Below are positions 34,053-39,258 of a stretch of 39,431 nucleotides of DNA, piece after piece. This DNA comes from Chloroflexota bacterium (GTDB lineage: Bacteria; Chloroflexota; Dehalococcoidia; Dehalococcoidales; UBA5760). Position numbers and translations under genes: made by a program. The first letter of the stretch is position 1, and every line of letters starts with the position of its first letter. The stretch covers positions 1 through 39,431 of the forward strand of contig JADFUW010000020.1 in the NCBI GenBank assembly GCA_015222205.1, read 5' to 3'. Under the pieces are notes generated by a model. It was not told where the DNA came from, made no database searches, and saw only the letters and a program-made list of their open reading frames with translations.

Positions 34053-35309
34053 ATGGTTCAGAGATGCAAAGGGTTTCGAGATTTATCCCCTGAGGAAATG
34101 ATAAGGTTTCGCTTTATTGAACAGGTATCCAGGGACTGTTGTCTCAAGTGGGGCTGTCTGGAGGTTAAAACACCGACCCTTGAGTATCTACACCTGTTTA
34201 CTTCAACGGGAACACTTACGCCGGGTATGCTGGGTAAGGCGTATTCTTTCCTGGATTGGGATGGGTGGAGTGGACAGCGGGTAGTGCTAAGACCTGATGG
34301 TACTATCCCAGTAGCCAGATTTTATATTGATAACATGGTAGAGAAGGGGTTAGCCAAACTCTTTTATGTAACTAATATCTTTAGGTTTGAAGAGACAGGA
34401 AAGGAAGCGAGGGAAAGATGGCAGGGTGGGGTTGAGCTTATCGGGGTAAATTCCCCCCTCGCTGATGTAGAACTAATAATAATGGCACTAGGGGTTTTGA
34501 CTAGTATAGGGATTAAGGATGTAGAGTTGCGTTTGTCTCATGCTGGTCTAATAAGGGGTTTACTCTCGAAGCTTGGGCTAAGTCCTCAAGAGCAAGCCAG
34601 AATCTTTGACCAAATCCTGGACGGGGATACGGAAGCCCTGGCTAGGATAAAGTCCGAGAAACCCAAACTGGGTAAGGCTTTGACTTCCTTACTTGGCCTG
34701 AAGGGTAAATCATCTGGAATTCTAAAAAACCTAAAGGCTTTATTTAACCATAGTTTACCCGAACTTGAACCCCATATTGATAATTTCATAAACATCGTTG
34801 ACCTTCTTGAGACTGCGGGTTATCGCTACCAGATTGACATAACCTCAGGTAGGGGCTTTGAGTACTATACCGGAATAATTTCTCAGCTCTTTGTAGGTGC
34901 TGAAAAAGTAGGTGGTGGGGGGCGGTATGATGCCCTCATTCCGCTAATGGGTGGTGGGGACATTCCAGCTTCGGGTTTTGCCCTTTATTTTGACAGCCTG
35001 ATGGATTTAGTAAAGCCAGCTATGCTATCTAGACCCCTGACGCAAAGAATCTTGATTAAGGCTGAGCCGGAAGTAGTAAGACATGGTTTTGATATTGCTC
35101 GTCATCTCCACGAAGCGGGATATGTTGCCGAACTTCAGCTTGAAGGCCAGGAGCCAGCTGACCTGAGATGGATACTTGAGGTTCGAAGTAAAGCGCCGTT
35201 ATTCGTCTTGACCGACCGGCTCAAGCATAAAACATTTGGGATTAAGACTGCTAGTGAGGTTCTGAAGCTACTGGGGGAAGGGGATGCCGATAAAGATAGC
35301 ATTGCCTAA
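34053..35309 (+). CDS. hisZ: ATP phosphoribosyltransferase regulatory subunit HisZ
   Basis: The 418-residue protein is a class II HisRS paralogue: LRPDGTIPVAR, motif 2 FRFEETGKEARERWQGGVEL (residues 110-129), GRGFEYYTG (266-274) and GGGGRYDAL (287-295). It departs from true HisRS in motif 2 and directly precedes hisG, so HisZ is the better call than histidyl-tRNA synthetase. HisZ binds short-form HisG and is needed for activity and histidine feedback. The 3' end overlaps hisG by 26 bases. A weak anticodon-binding-like C-terminal region remains (about residues 328-405). Confidence 0.83.
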   Translation: MVQRCKGFRDLSPEEMIRFRFIEQVSRDCCLKWGCLEVKTPTLEYLHLFTSTGTLTPGMLGKAYSFLDWDGWSGQRVVLRPDGTIPVARFYIDNMVEKGLAKLFYVTNIFRFEETGKEARERWQGGVELIGVNSPLADVELIIMALGVLTSIGIKDVELRLSHAGLIRGLLSKLGLSPQEQARIFDQILDGDTEALARIKSEKPKLGKALTSLLGLKGKSSGILKNLKALFNHSLPELEPHIDNFINIVDLLETAGYRYQIDITSGRGFEYYTGIISQLFVGAEKVGGGGRYDALIPLMGGGDIPASGFALYFDSLMDLVKPAMLSRPLTQRILIKAEPEVVRHGFDIARHLHEAGYVAELQLEGQEPADLRWILEVRSKAPLFVLTDRLKHKTFGIKTASEVLKLLGEGDADKDSIA

Positions 35310-36705
35310 AGGTCGCCTTTTGGCTGAGACAGCCACTTTGCTCCGGAGGGCTGACTGGGGACTGGGTAGCTACCATGAGGCGGCCCGCCTCTATCGCCTT
35401 AAATCGGCAAGGTTTCCCCAGCTCTCTGCCAAGGTGTTCCATGAGAGGGATATTCCTATTCAGGTGGCTATAGGAAACTATGATTTAGGGATTTGCGGGC
35501 TGGATTGGGTGGAGGAGCTTTTAGCTAAGTATCCTAGCAGCGCCCTGGTTAAAGTGAAAAACCTGGGCTATGGAGGCGGTGTTTTATATCTCGTTGGCAG
35601 TAAGTCTGAGGGGGCATCTTCGGTAGAGAAAATAAGGGCAAGACCGGGAGTGATATGTATTGCCAGCGAGTACCCTAATCTGGCTGAATCCTTGGCTCTA
35701 TACCTTCGGCTCAAGCAGTTCAGCATCTTCCCTCTGTGGGGGGGTGCTGATGTCTATCCCCCCGAAAGTGCTGATTTAGCCTTAATCACGGGAAAGACAG
35801 GGCAGAAGTCTTTTGATTATGACCTTGTATCTGTAAGCAATGTCCGAAGTTATAGTACTTTTCTTATAGCTAATAAGGGTAGCTGGGAAACAAAAGACCT
35901 AAGTGAATTACTAGGTTCTATTGAGGACGGACTGCCTCTTAGTGAAAAACATCCCCCTTCATCTGAGGTAGCTAGAGTGCCAGTAGCGGCTAGGCACCCC
36001 TTTTCTAACCAGGCGGTTGAGGATACAGTCCGACTAGCCTTACCCGATGGTCATCAACAGGAACCTACCGTTAGTCTACTTAATGGAGCTGGTATTTGGG
36101 TTGAGGATTATCCATCACCTACGGGCAATCGCCGACCAGCGGTTAATTTAGATGGGGTGGTGGTTAAGGTGATTAGGCCTCAGGATATGCCGCTGCAGGT
36201 GGCTAACGGAAATTTCGATTTGGCGATTACCGGTAAGGATTGGGTTAGGGAGCATCTTTATCAGTTTCCCTCCAGCCCGGTGGTAGAGCTTCTCAACCTC
36301 AAGTTTGGTCGGGTGAAGATAGTGGCCGTAGTAAGCCAGGATTTACCAGTTTCTGATATCTATAGCTTAAGGCAGTTTAGTAGCGAGCAACTCAGGCCGC
36401 TTAGGGTAGCTTCAGAGTATGTAAATATCGCTGATAAATTTGCCAGAGATAATCACCTGGGAATGTATCGGATAATCCCCACCTGGGGTGCCAGTGAGGC
36501 TTTCTTACCTGAGGATGCCGACTTGCTTATTGAGAATACACAGACGGGGCGAACCATAGCCAAACATAACCTCAAGATTATTGATACCATTGGGCAGTCG
36601 TCAGCCTGTCTCATTGGTAATATCAGTGTTGCATGTAGTTCTCGTAAAAAGGCAAGAATAGACTCTATTATCAAGGCCCTGCGAGTTACTGTCGGGGATA
36701 GTTAA
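35284..36705 (+). CDS. hisG: Tandem-domain ATP phosphoribosyltransferase (HisG-HisG fusion)
   Basis: HisG joins ATP and PRPP to phosphoribosyl-ATP, the first step of histidine synthesis. Normal short-form HisG is about 210 residues; this single reading frame of 473 holds two copies. Copy 1 (about 1-201) has IALPKGRLLAE, QVAIGNYDLGICGLDWV, IASEYPNLAE and a weak PRPP loop GKTGQKSFDYDL. Copy 2 (about 229-473) has LALPDGHQQEP, QVANGNFDLAITGKDWV, VASEYVNIAD and a normal PRPP loop NTQTGRTIAKHNL. In a 35-residue block (60-94 and 305-339) 20 residues are identical. No ACT-like C-terminal regulatory domain is present. The fusion probably acts as a covalent dimer with HisZ. The ATG follows GGGGGAAGGGG inside hisZ. 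Confidence 0.9.
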   Translation: MPIKIALPKGRLLAETATLLRRADWGLGSYHEAARLYRLKSARFPQLSAKVFHERDIPIQVAIGNYDLGICGLDWVEELLAKYPSSALVKVKNLGYGGGVLYLVGSKSEGASSVEKIRARPGVICIASEYPNLAESLALYLRLKQFSIFPLWGGADVYPPESADLALITGKTGQKSFDYDLVSVSNVRSYSTFLIANKGSWETKDLSELLGSIEDGLPLSEKHPPSSEVARVPVAARHPFSNQAVEDTVRLALPDGHQQEPTVSLLNGAGIWVEDYPSPTGNRRPAVNLDGVVVKVIRPQDMPLQVANGNFDLAITGKDWVREHLYQFPSSPVVELLNLKFGRVKIVAVVSQDLPVSDIYSLRQFSSEQLRPLRVASEYVNIADKFARDNHLGMYRIIPTWGASEAFLPEDADLLIENTQTGRTIAKHNLKIIDTIGQSSACLIGNISVACSSRKKARIDSIIKALRVTVGDS

Positions 36706-36745
36706 AACGAATCCCATGTCTACAAATATTAGCGGAGAATGTCTG

Positions 36746-38071
36746 ATGGAAATCATTGAAGGTTTTAGGTTAGCTAAAGTAGTGTTATCGCGACAGACCT
36801 CAGCCGATTTTTATTCTGTTTCAGCAACTCTTAGGCAAAGGCTTAACAAGATGTTTGGCACTGAAGACCCAGAGCAGGCCGTCAGGCAGATTATCAATGA
36901 GGTACGCGACAGAGGGGATGAAGCCCTTTTTGCTCTTACTCTAAAGATTGACGGGGTAAAGCCTACTTCGCTGGAAGTAAGCAGAGAAGAGATAACCAAT
37001 GCCTATCATGAAGTGGATTCTGAACTGGTATCAGCACTTAAGCTAGCTGCTGAGCGGATACGAGCCTTTCATGTTGAGCAGAGGGATAGTGTTGGCAAGG
37101 GATTTGCCACGCAGGGCTTAAGTCAGATGATACGCCCACTGGGGCGCATTGGGGTATATGCCCCCGGGGGCAGTGCCTCTTATCCCTCAACAGCCTTGAT
37201 GACAGCAATACCAGCTAAGGTCGCTGGGGTCAAGGAGATTATCTTGGCTTCGTCGCCTGGAGCCAGAGGTGTAATTCCTTCAACTACGTTGGTAGCTGCT
37301 GATATTGCCGGGGTGGATCGGATTTTTTGTGTTGGGGGTGCTCAAGCAATTGCTGCCCTAGCCTTCGGTACTGAGTCTATTCCTAAGGTAGATAAGATTT
37401 GTGGGCCAGGTAACATCTTTGTCGTTCTCGCTAAAAAATTAGTCTACGGGGTAGTTGATATTGATGGGCTTCAGGGGCCAAGTGAGGTACTCATTATAGC
37501 TGATGAGACCGCTAATCCGGGATACTGCGCCGCTGACCTTCTAGCTCAGGCGGAGCATGACCCGTTAGCCTCGGCTATTCTAATAACTACCTCGCGGCAC
37601 TTAGCCAATGAGGTTAACCGGAAGGTTGAGCGACAACTGGAGACTCTATCTCGTAAAGATGTGGCCGCTGAATCTTTGAAAGATAGAGGGAAGATAGTAA
37701 TCGTGGCTAGTATAGGCGAGGCTATAGAACTGGCTAATCTTTATGCCCCAGAACACCTTTGCCTGGCAGTAGACAAAGCCACTACTTATATTGACCGGAT
37801 TTCTAATGCCGGGTGCATATTTGTCGGTGGCAAATCAACCGTGGTTCTGGGTGATTATATCGCTGGGCCAAGCCATGTCTTACCTACTGGTGGTACTGCT
37901 CGATTTAGCTCACCGCTCAATGTAACTGACTTTATTAAGTTTATAAATCTGGTTAATCTGGATGAGGCTACGGTGAAAAAGCTGGGACCAGCGGCGATAG
38001 CTATAGCCCGCGCCGAGGGGTTTGAGGCTCATGCCCGGGCGGTGGAAAAGCGGTTGGAGGATAACCTCTAA
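36746..38071 (+). CDS. hisD: Histidinol dehydrogenase
   Basis: It oxidises L-histidinol to histidine in two NAD-dependent steps. The 441-residue protein shows RPLGRIGVYAPGGSASYPS, VGGAQAIAALAFGTESIPKV, LLAQAEHDP (zinc ligands Gln and His), YAPEHLCL (catalytic Glu-His), GDYIAGPSHVLPTGGTARF and a late EGFEAHARAV (zinc His). I use the ATG at 36746 behind CGGAGAA; an ATG at 36716 would add ten residues with no ribosome-binding site. It follows hisG by 40 bases. Confidence 0.97.
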   Translation: MEIIEGFRLAKVVLSRQTSADFYSVSATLRQRLNKMFGTEDPEQAVRQIINEVRDRGDEALFALTLKIDGVKPTSLEVSREEITNAYHEVDSELVSALKLAAERIRAFHVEQRDSVGKGFATQGLSQMIRPLGRIGVYAPGGSASYPSTALMTAIPAKVAGVKEIILASSPGARGVIPSTTLVAADIAGVDRIFCVGGAQAIAALAFGTESIPKVDKICGPGNIFVVLAKKLVYGVVDIDGLQGPSEVLIIADETANPGYCAADLLAQAEHDPLASAILITTSRHLANEVNRKVERQLETLSRKDVAAESLKDRGKIVIVASIGEAIELANLYAPEHLCLAVDKATTYIDRISNAGCIFVGGKSTVVLGDYIAGPSHVLPTGGTARFSSPLNVTDFIKFINLVNLDEATVKKLGPAAIAIARAEGFEAHARAVEKRLEDNL

Positions 38072-38160: not shown

Positions 38161-39258
38161 ATGTCAGAGGGTACCGGGATAGAGGGATTAATACGCTCTA
38201 ATTTGGTTAATCTTAATGGCTATAGTGCCCGAAAGTCCCCGGAAACACTGAAAGGGGAGCTTGAGGTCCCCGTAGAAGGTATTATCAAGCTGGATGCCAA
38301 TGAAAACCCCTATGGCTGCTCGCCGAAGGTAAACCAGGCTCTAGCCTCCTGTCCCGACCTTAATATCTATCCTGATGCCGGACAAGCCGAGTTCAGGGAA
38401 CTATTAGCTGGATACACTGGCATTGGCGCCGAACATATCGTGGCGGGTAGTGGTAGTGGTGACCTGATAGACCTTATCTTGCGTTTGTTTGTTGAGCCGG
38501 GAGACGAAGTAATAATTTGCGCTCCGGCCTTTAGTATGTTTCGTTTTAGCACTGAGATGTATGGCGGCAGGCTGATTGAGGTGCCCAGGGATAAGGACTT
38601 TGCTATTGATGTCAGCATGGTGAGGGCGGCAATAAGCAAAAGAACCAAGATAATACTGATGGATAATCCTAATAACCCTGCTGGAAATATAACACCCCAA
38701 AAGGATATACAGGCAATAGTAGATACGGGACTACCAGTGGTGGTTGATGAGGCCTATGTCGAGTTTGCTGGAAGAACTATGGTGCCAATGGTTAGTCAGT
38801 ATAAAAACTTGATGGTGCTGCGGACATTTAGTAAGTGGGCGGGGCTGGCTGGTCTGAGGGTTGGTTACGGCATTTTCCCGCCCAAAATAGCCGACTACCT
38901 GGTAAGGATTAAGCTTCCGTATAATGTAAATGTGGCGGCACTCGTGGCGGTTCGGGAATCACTAAAGGATTTGGATTACTTGATGGGTAATGTAAAGGCT
39001 ATAATTGCTGAGAGAGATAGGCTGTTTGGTGAGTTAGAAAAAATAAGGTTTTTGACGCCCTTCCCTTCGCAAGCCAACTTTATTCTCTGCTCAGTTGCAG
39101 GCGGCTCAGCCAGCGAGCTTTACCAGAGGTTACGAAGAAAGGGCATACTGGTTCGTTACTTTGACACCCCGCTTTTGCGGGATTATATTCGTATTAGCGT
39201 GGGCAAACCGGAGCATACCGATGCCTTAATCGCAGCACTCCGAGAAATAGAAAAATGA
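38161..39258 (+). CDS. hisC: Histidinol-phosphate aminotransferase
   Basis: This PLP enzyme makes histidinol phosphate from imidazole acetol phosphate and glutamate. The 365-residue fold-type I protein has LDANENPYG, DNPNNPAGN (170-176 area), VVDEAYVEF (Asp196, Tyr199) and the PLP lysine Lys225 in RTFSKWAGLAGLRVGYG. The ATG at 38161 follows AGAAAGGGA. An 89-base gap with no gene separates it from hisD, larger than the other gaps in this operon. Confidence 0.96.
   Translation: MSEGTGIEGLIRSNLVNLNGYSARKSPETLKGELEVPVEGIIKLDANENPYGCSPKVNQALASCPDLNIYPDAGQAEFRELLAGYTGIGAEHIVAGSGSGDLIDLILRLFVEPGDEVIICAPAFSMFRFSTEMYGGRLIEVPRDKDFAIDVSMVRAAISKRTKIILMDNPNNPAGNITPQKDIQAIVDTGLPVVVDEAYVEFAGRTMVPMVSQYKNLMVLRTFSKWAGLAGLRVGYGIFPPKIADYLVRIKLPYNVNVAALVAVRESLKDLDYLMGNVKAIIAERDRLFGELEKIRFLTPFPSQANFILCSVAGGSASELYQRLRRKGILVRYFDTPLLRDYIRISVGKPEHTDALIAALREIEK

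Follow-up and report, generated by a model that had tools for sequence, protein, structure and literature searches.

A tandem double-domain HisG with unequal halves, encoded next to a hisZ-like gene in Dehalococcoidia

ATP phosphoribosyltransferase (ATP-PRT) is a textbook allosteric enzyme, and two architectures of it are known. We analyzed a window of 39,431 nucleotides from a Dehalococcoidales genome (positions 1 to 39,431 of contig JADFUW010000020.1, assembly GCA_015222205.1), in which one hisG frame encodes two HisG domains. Are both domains enzymes, where did the second one come from, and how would such a protein work? A sequence-only reading of this window had described two HisG catalytic domains in tandem, for which it suggested duplication within one lineage.

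The double hisG gene and its operon

The genes and domains that we discuss are all on the forward strand:

34053..35309, + strand: hisZ-like regulatory subunit gene, 418 aa (PF13393, E 6e-52; TIGR00443, 202.6 bits, below the cut-off)
35284..36705, + strand: double-domain hisG, 473 aa, with an ATG start and no internal stop; matches HisG profiles
35284..35931, + strand: N-terminal HisG domain, residues 1–216, putative non-catalytic half (TIGR00070, 98.4 bits alone; PRPP loop degenerate)
35932..36018, + strand: linker, residues 217–245 (disorder predicted at 220–243, pLDDT <50)
36019..36693, + strand: C-terminal HisG domain, residues 246–470, putative catalytic half (TIGR00070, 124.5 bits alone; PRPP loop intact)
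36716..38071, + strand: hisD, histidinol dehydrogenase (TIGR00069, 517 bits)
38161..39258, + strand: hisC-like aminotransferase, named by eye from the sequence

Profile matches to the whole 473-residue protein are to HisG only. Scanned alone, residues 1–219 match Pfam HisG with E 1e-17 and TIGR00070 with 98 bits, and residues 220–473 match with E 5e-34 and 125 bits. Each half alone, as well as the entire protein, exceeds the curated TIGR00070 cut-off of 75.75 bits. The proposed pair of HisG-fold domains is therefore real, and neither half lacks a HisG match when searched separately, an outcome that the sequence-only reading had named as fatal to it. The two halves are 32% identical over 201 aligned columns (E 8e-31). 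Our hand count of the QVAIGNYDLG... / QVANGNFDLA... stretch gave 20 identities in 35 residues, the same as the original count.

In an AlphaFold2 model built on 50 homologs (mean pLDDT 83.7, pTM 0.75), strands and helices follow one another in the same order in the N and C halves. The exception is a helix over the PRPP loop of the C half (423–427), which is absent at the corresponding position in the N half. The best Foldseek match is to HisG from the HisZG complex of Psychrobacter arcticus (TM 0.89 by target length). A pTM of this size would fit halves that have a defined arrangement, and from this value alone we infer that they may pack within one chain as a HisG-like pseudo-dimer.

The gene fits neither of the usual forms. 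Short-form HisG is a single catalytic domain of ~200–230 aa, not two domains in 473 aa. The long form has a HisG_C tail, and our profile search did not find PF08029 (HisG_C) anywhere in the source genome. The double HisG is also the only HisG that we found in this genome (89.8% complete).

The protein does share the adjacent HisRS-like gene of the short form. The hisZ-like gene overlaps hisG by 26 bases, and in all loci with enough flanking sequence, the double hisG has a HisZ-like gene upstream of it. The two are usually no more than 150 bases apart; in a few loci the gap is wider and reaches about 1 kb. The hisZ-like product falls short of the curated cut-offs for HisS and for HisZ. Complete or near-complete relatives with the double HisG have a second PF13393 (HisRS-like) gene elsewhere, which is presumably HisRS; this makes HisZ the best reading of the copy linked to hisG. 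In the source genome, we did not find a housekeeping HisRS, and the product of 34053–35309 is the only PF13393 protein that we found there; HisRS is probably missing because the assembly is incomplete.

Frames of 680–897 aa at three loci (L139, L141, and L165) looked like HisZ-HisG-HisG triple fusions. We rejected these: HisZ lies in a different frame from the double HisG, and the upstream part is an unrelated out-of-frame translation.

Some lineages have a frame of ~250 aa between the double hisG and hisD (L098:5451-6212), and similar gaps are present at L095, L097, L099, L101, L102, and L109.

The single HisGs of the class are varied. Among those checked with profiles, some have the HisG_C tail (L122, L126) and others do not; L153, L128, and L155 were judged by eye to be long form. 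At L222:1324-3757 (genome G234, family f20), a single HisG whose HisG_C tail scores above the TIGR03455 cut-off overlaps an upstream HisZ-like gene. This is a long-form HisG paired with HisZ, which is an unusual mixture. G098 (family f11) is similar, with a weaker match to the tail.

Distribution and a single old duplication

We examined 101 Dehalococcoidales genomes, of which 90 contained HisG. Two or more HisG matches were present in 86 of these 90 (counted from the table), and both matches share one frame of ~460–530 aa wherever the contigs allow. Across the class, we sampled 294 Dehalococcoidia genomes with completeness of at least 90%. In this sample, two or more matches were found in 56/59 of the HisG-bearing Dehalococcoidales and in about 104/221 of the other Dehalococcoidia.

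In Chloroflexota outside of Dehalococcoidia, none of the candidates that we examined was a double HisG. Seven sampled genomes had two matches, and the six that we examined (all but G294) were pieces on separate contigs or fragments. The named matches are metagenome assemblies of Dehalococcoidia, Dehalococcoidales, Dehalococcoides, or Chloroflexi, and tblastn relatives in other phyla align to essentially the C half only, which is a weak test outside of Chloroflexota.

The sequence-only reading would also have fallen to an assembly duplication, which we can rule out because the double frame recurs across many independent genomes, including the single-contig G007, G020, and G030. G007 is a complete genome with identical gene order, and it encodes a 471-aa double HisG after hisZ. 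We also considered a natural split of the protein into separate halves in G404, G447, and G421, but these are contig ends.

Two kinds of exceptional genomes deserve mention. G471 and G479, from one genus of Dehalococcoidales, have the order hisZ-hisG-hisD with an ordinary single HisG, and their HisZ is distant (L033, L034). This HisG groups with that of P. arcticus in the tree, and the operon looks as if it was replaced by transfer. In two genomes of family f14, a separate single HisG accompanies the double one: G537 (L224, L230) and G611 (L225, L231).

In a tree of 73 rows, the N halves (100/99), the C halves (99/96), and the single HisGs (100/99) each lie on one side of a branch. The separation was retained (100/100, 100/99, and 100/97) when HisGs from Alphaproteobacteria, Clostridia, and Actinomycetota were added. 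The N and C halves together are separated from all single HisGs with support of 100/99 and 100/97 in the two trees, and because the outgroup HisGs all fall among the singles, the N and C halves are sisters. Judged by sequence phylogeny, this shows one old duplication, before the divergence of these families, and it agrees with the proposal of duplication within one lineage. A fusion of two distant HisGs can be ruled out, as the N and C halves adjoin in the trees. In the 73-row tree, the stem of the N halves is longer than that of the C halves (1.06 vs. 0.41).

Active-site residues and conservation in the two halves

We aligned 85 distinct double-domain frames and compared their active-site residues with those of P. 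arcticus HisG, whose numbering we use for equivalent positions. (The aligned PDB chain is the R56A mutant, 7z6r.) The relevant positions in the window, with counts across the 85 proteins, are:

35308..35316, + strand: KGR, residues 9–11, N half, which holds the Arg32 equivalent (R in 70/85 N halves)
35386..35388, + strand: Arg35, N half, the Arg56 equivalent (R in 71/85 N halves)
35440..35442, + strand: His53, N half, at the position of the ATP γ-phosphate residue Arg73, which is lost (R in only 8/85 N halves)
35785..35811, + strand: degenerate PRPP loop of the N half, ITGKTGQKS (mean entropy 2.81 bits vs. 1.67 elsewhere in the half)
36046..36054, + strand: DGH, residues 255–257, C half, at the KGR position (H in 84/85 C halves)
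36130..36135, + strand: Arg283-Arg284, C half, which may correspond to Arg56/Lys57 (the register of the alignment is uncertain)
36175..36177, + strand: Arg298, C half, the Arg73 equivalent, which is kept (R in 85/85 C halves)
36532..36558, + strand: intact PRPP loop of the C half, ENTQTGRTI (T in 84, G in 85, and T in 80 of 85; entropy 0.86)

The PRPP loop (positions 176–187) reads E/D-N-T-E/Q-T-G-x-T in the C halves and is scrambled in the N halves. The consensus (D/E)xxx(T/S)GxT(L/I) fits the C half and not the N half. Arg73 of P. arcticus HisG binds the γ-phosphate of ATP (PMC10795190), and most N halves have H or Q at this position.

Could both halves nevertheless be active? Each passes the HisG equivalog cut-off, and the equivalents of E163, D76, and D87 are kept by both halves in most or all members. 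However, the TGxT phosphate loop, its acidic residues, and Arg73 are missing from the N half in nearly all 85 proteins, and we consider two active halves to be very improbable. With neither a PRPP-binding loop nor an equivalent of Arg73, the N half is probably non-catalytic, and the residues kept in the C half indicate that it alone still works as the catalyst. Of the original description as two catalytic domains, the two HisG domains stand and catalysis by the N half is not supported; the tandem arrangement was recognized correctly, and the inequivalence of the halves and the lineage-wide, HisZ-linked nature of the protein were missed.

The C half does have unusual features, which count against its being the catalyst: it has a histidine at the position of Arg32, whose change to alanine in P. 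arcticus HisG reduces activity about 25-fold without HisZ, and a valine instead of Cys115. Also, KGR is kept in most N halves, with TGD instead in one sub-lineage. Given that studied enzymes have other residues in place of DGH and Val115, the double protein might no longer be an ATP-PRT at all. We find this hard to believe, as the protein is the sole HisG found in the source genome and in most of its relatives, the order hisZ-hisG-hisD is kept along with the PRPP loop and Arg73, and genus g273 has an ordinary single HisG at the same place in the operon.

Loss of the PRPP loop does not mean that the N half is decaying. Its dN/dS is mostly 0.1–0.25, with similar values for the C half; purifying selection acts on both halves. 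Variation in the N half is instead concentrated in the loop. The mean entropy of the PRPP loop is 2.81 bits in N halves, 0.86 in C halves, and 1.25 in single HisGs, and that of the remaining columns is 1.67, 1.29, and 2.29 bits, respectively. Similarly, the mean pairwise identity of the loop is 28% (N) vs. 71% (C), and that of the whole half is 53% (N) vs. 61% (C).

What is the N half conserved for? The altered pocket might be a regulatory site that binds a ligand (such as a nucleotide, pyrophosphate, or the product), and the N half would then be more than a structural partner. Eukaryotic phosphofructokinase gives a precedent for a lost catalytic half that became a regulatory ligand site. Outside of the loop, conservation is strong over most of the N half and extends to KGR (in most members), E129-Y130, a GxxE/D motif, and D56-P58. 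Arginines 283–284 of the C half could point into the N pocket. On the other hand, variability within the N half is highest in the PRPP loop, which gives no hint of a specific phosphate site, and the TGD sub-lineage lacks KGR as well. We consider a regulatory pocket unlikely, if less so than the other alternatives.

A proposed mechanism and known systems

We think it probable that the double HisG is a covalent pseudo-dimer of short-form ATP-PRT, with one active site per chain (in the C half), the N half as its partner, and regulation by HisZ. An ancestral HisG gene would have undergone tandem duplication and fusion, which joined what are normally two subunits of a HisG dimer into a single chain. 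As its residues suggest, the C half would retain PRPP and ATP binding and do the chemistry, and the N half, minus its PRPP loop, would persist as an obligatory dimer partner that probably aids HisZ docking. By analogy to P. arcticus, HisZ would do what it does in other short-form enzymes: activate catalysis and transmit the feedback inhibition by histidine.

The N half would probably also contribute residues to the C-half site from the other side of the interface, with Arg35 as the candidate. In P. arcticus, Arg56 extends from one subunit of the dimer into the site of the other (PMC9734150). Arginine at the equivalent position is about as frequent in N halves as in single HisGs (43/53). Two observations count against this role for Arg35: the equivalence is not strict (71 R, 4 K, 4 G, and 3 H among 85 N halves), and the C half may hold an Arg56 equivalent too, in Arg283/Arg284, for which MAFFT and phmmer give different registers.

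We are evenly divided about a broader proposal: that the enzyme is asymmetric by construction throughout the lineage, with a conserved pseudo-HisG half that completes the single site and relays control by HisZ. If so, the catalytic partner and the regulator would both be degenerate enzymes (a pseudo-HisG and a pseudo-HisRS).

Double HisG would be a third architecture for ATP-PRT, with the two positions of the dimer covalently linked and separately evolved. Mutagenesis could then separate the cis, trans, and HisZ-signaling roles of the dimer, which is not possible with a homodimer. Our results also correct how hisG is annotated in organohalide-respiring bacteria and in many uncultured Chloroflexota.

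The sequence-only reading knew of no double-domain HisG, and our searches of the open-licence literature (for HisG tandem duplication, for the short form in Chloroflexi, and for Dehalococcoides HisG or ATP-PRT) found no description of one either. A 2007 survey of fusions, which covered two Dehalococcoidetes, names hisG only in describing the operon. The products of hisA/hisF gene elongation resemble the double HisG in being internal tandem duplications of a his gene, and the review of gene elongation names hisG only as a member of the operon (PMC7284861).

The short-form ATP-PRT (HisG_S with HisZ, such as 5m8h from Psychrobacter arcticus) is similar in the HisG fold of both halves, in the absence of a HisG_C tail, and in having the HisZ gene directly upstream. 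It differs in having one subunit of ~210 aa instead of two fused domains with one degenerate pocket, and in having KGR instead of the DGH of the C half. The long-form ATP-PRT (HisG_L, with an ACT-like HisG_C) shares the fold of the catalytic domain, and several single HisGs of Dehalococcoidia are of this form; in contrast, the extra length here is a second HisG domain and not HisG_C. The short form assembles as a HisG4-HisZ4 hetero-octamer. Eukaryotic phosphofructokinase and mammalian hexokinase are tandem-duplicated enzymes in which one half is non-catalytic, although their folds and pathway are unrelated to those of HisG.
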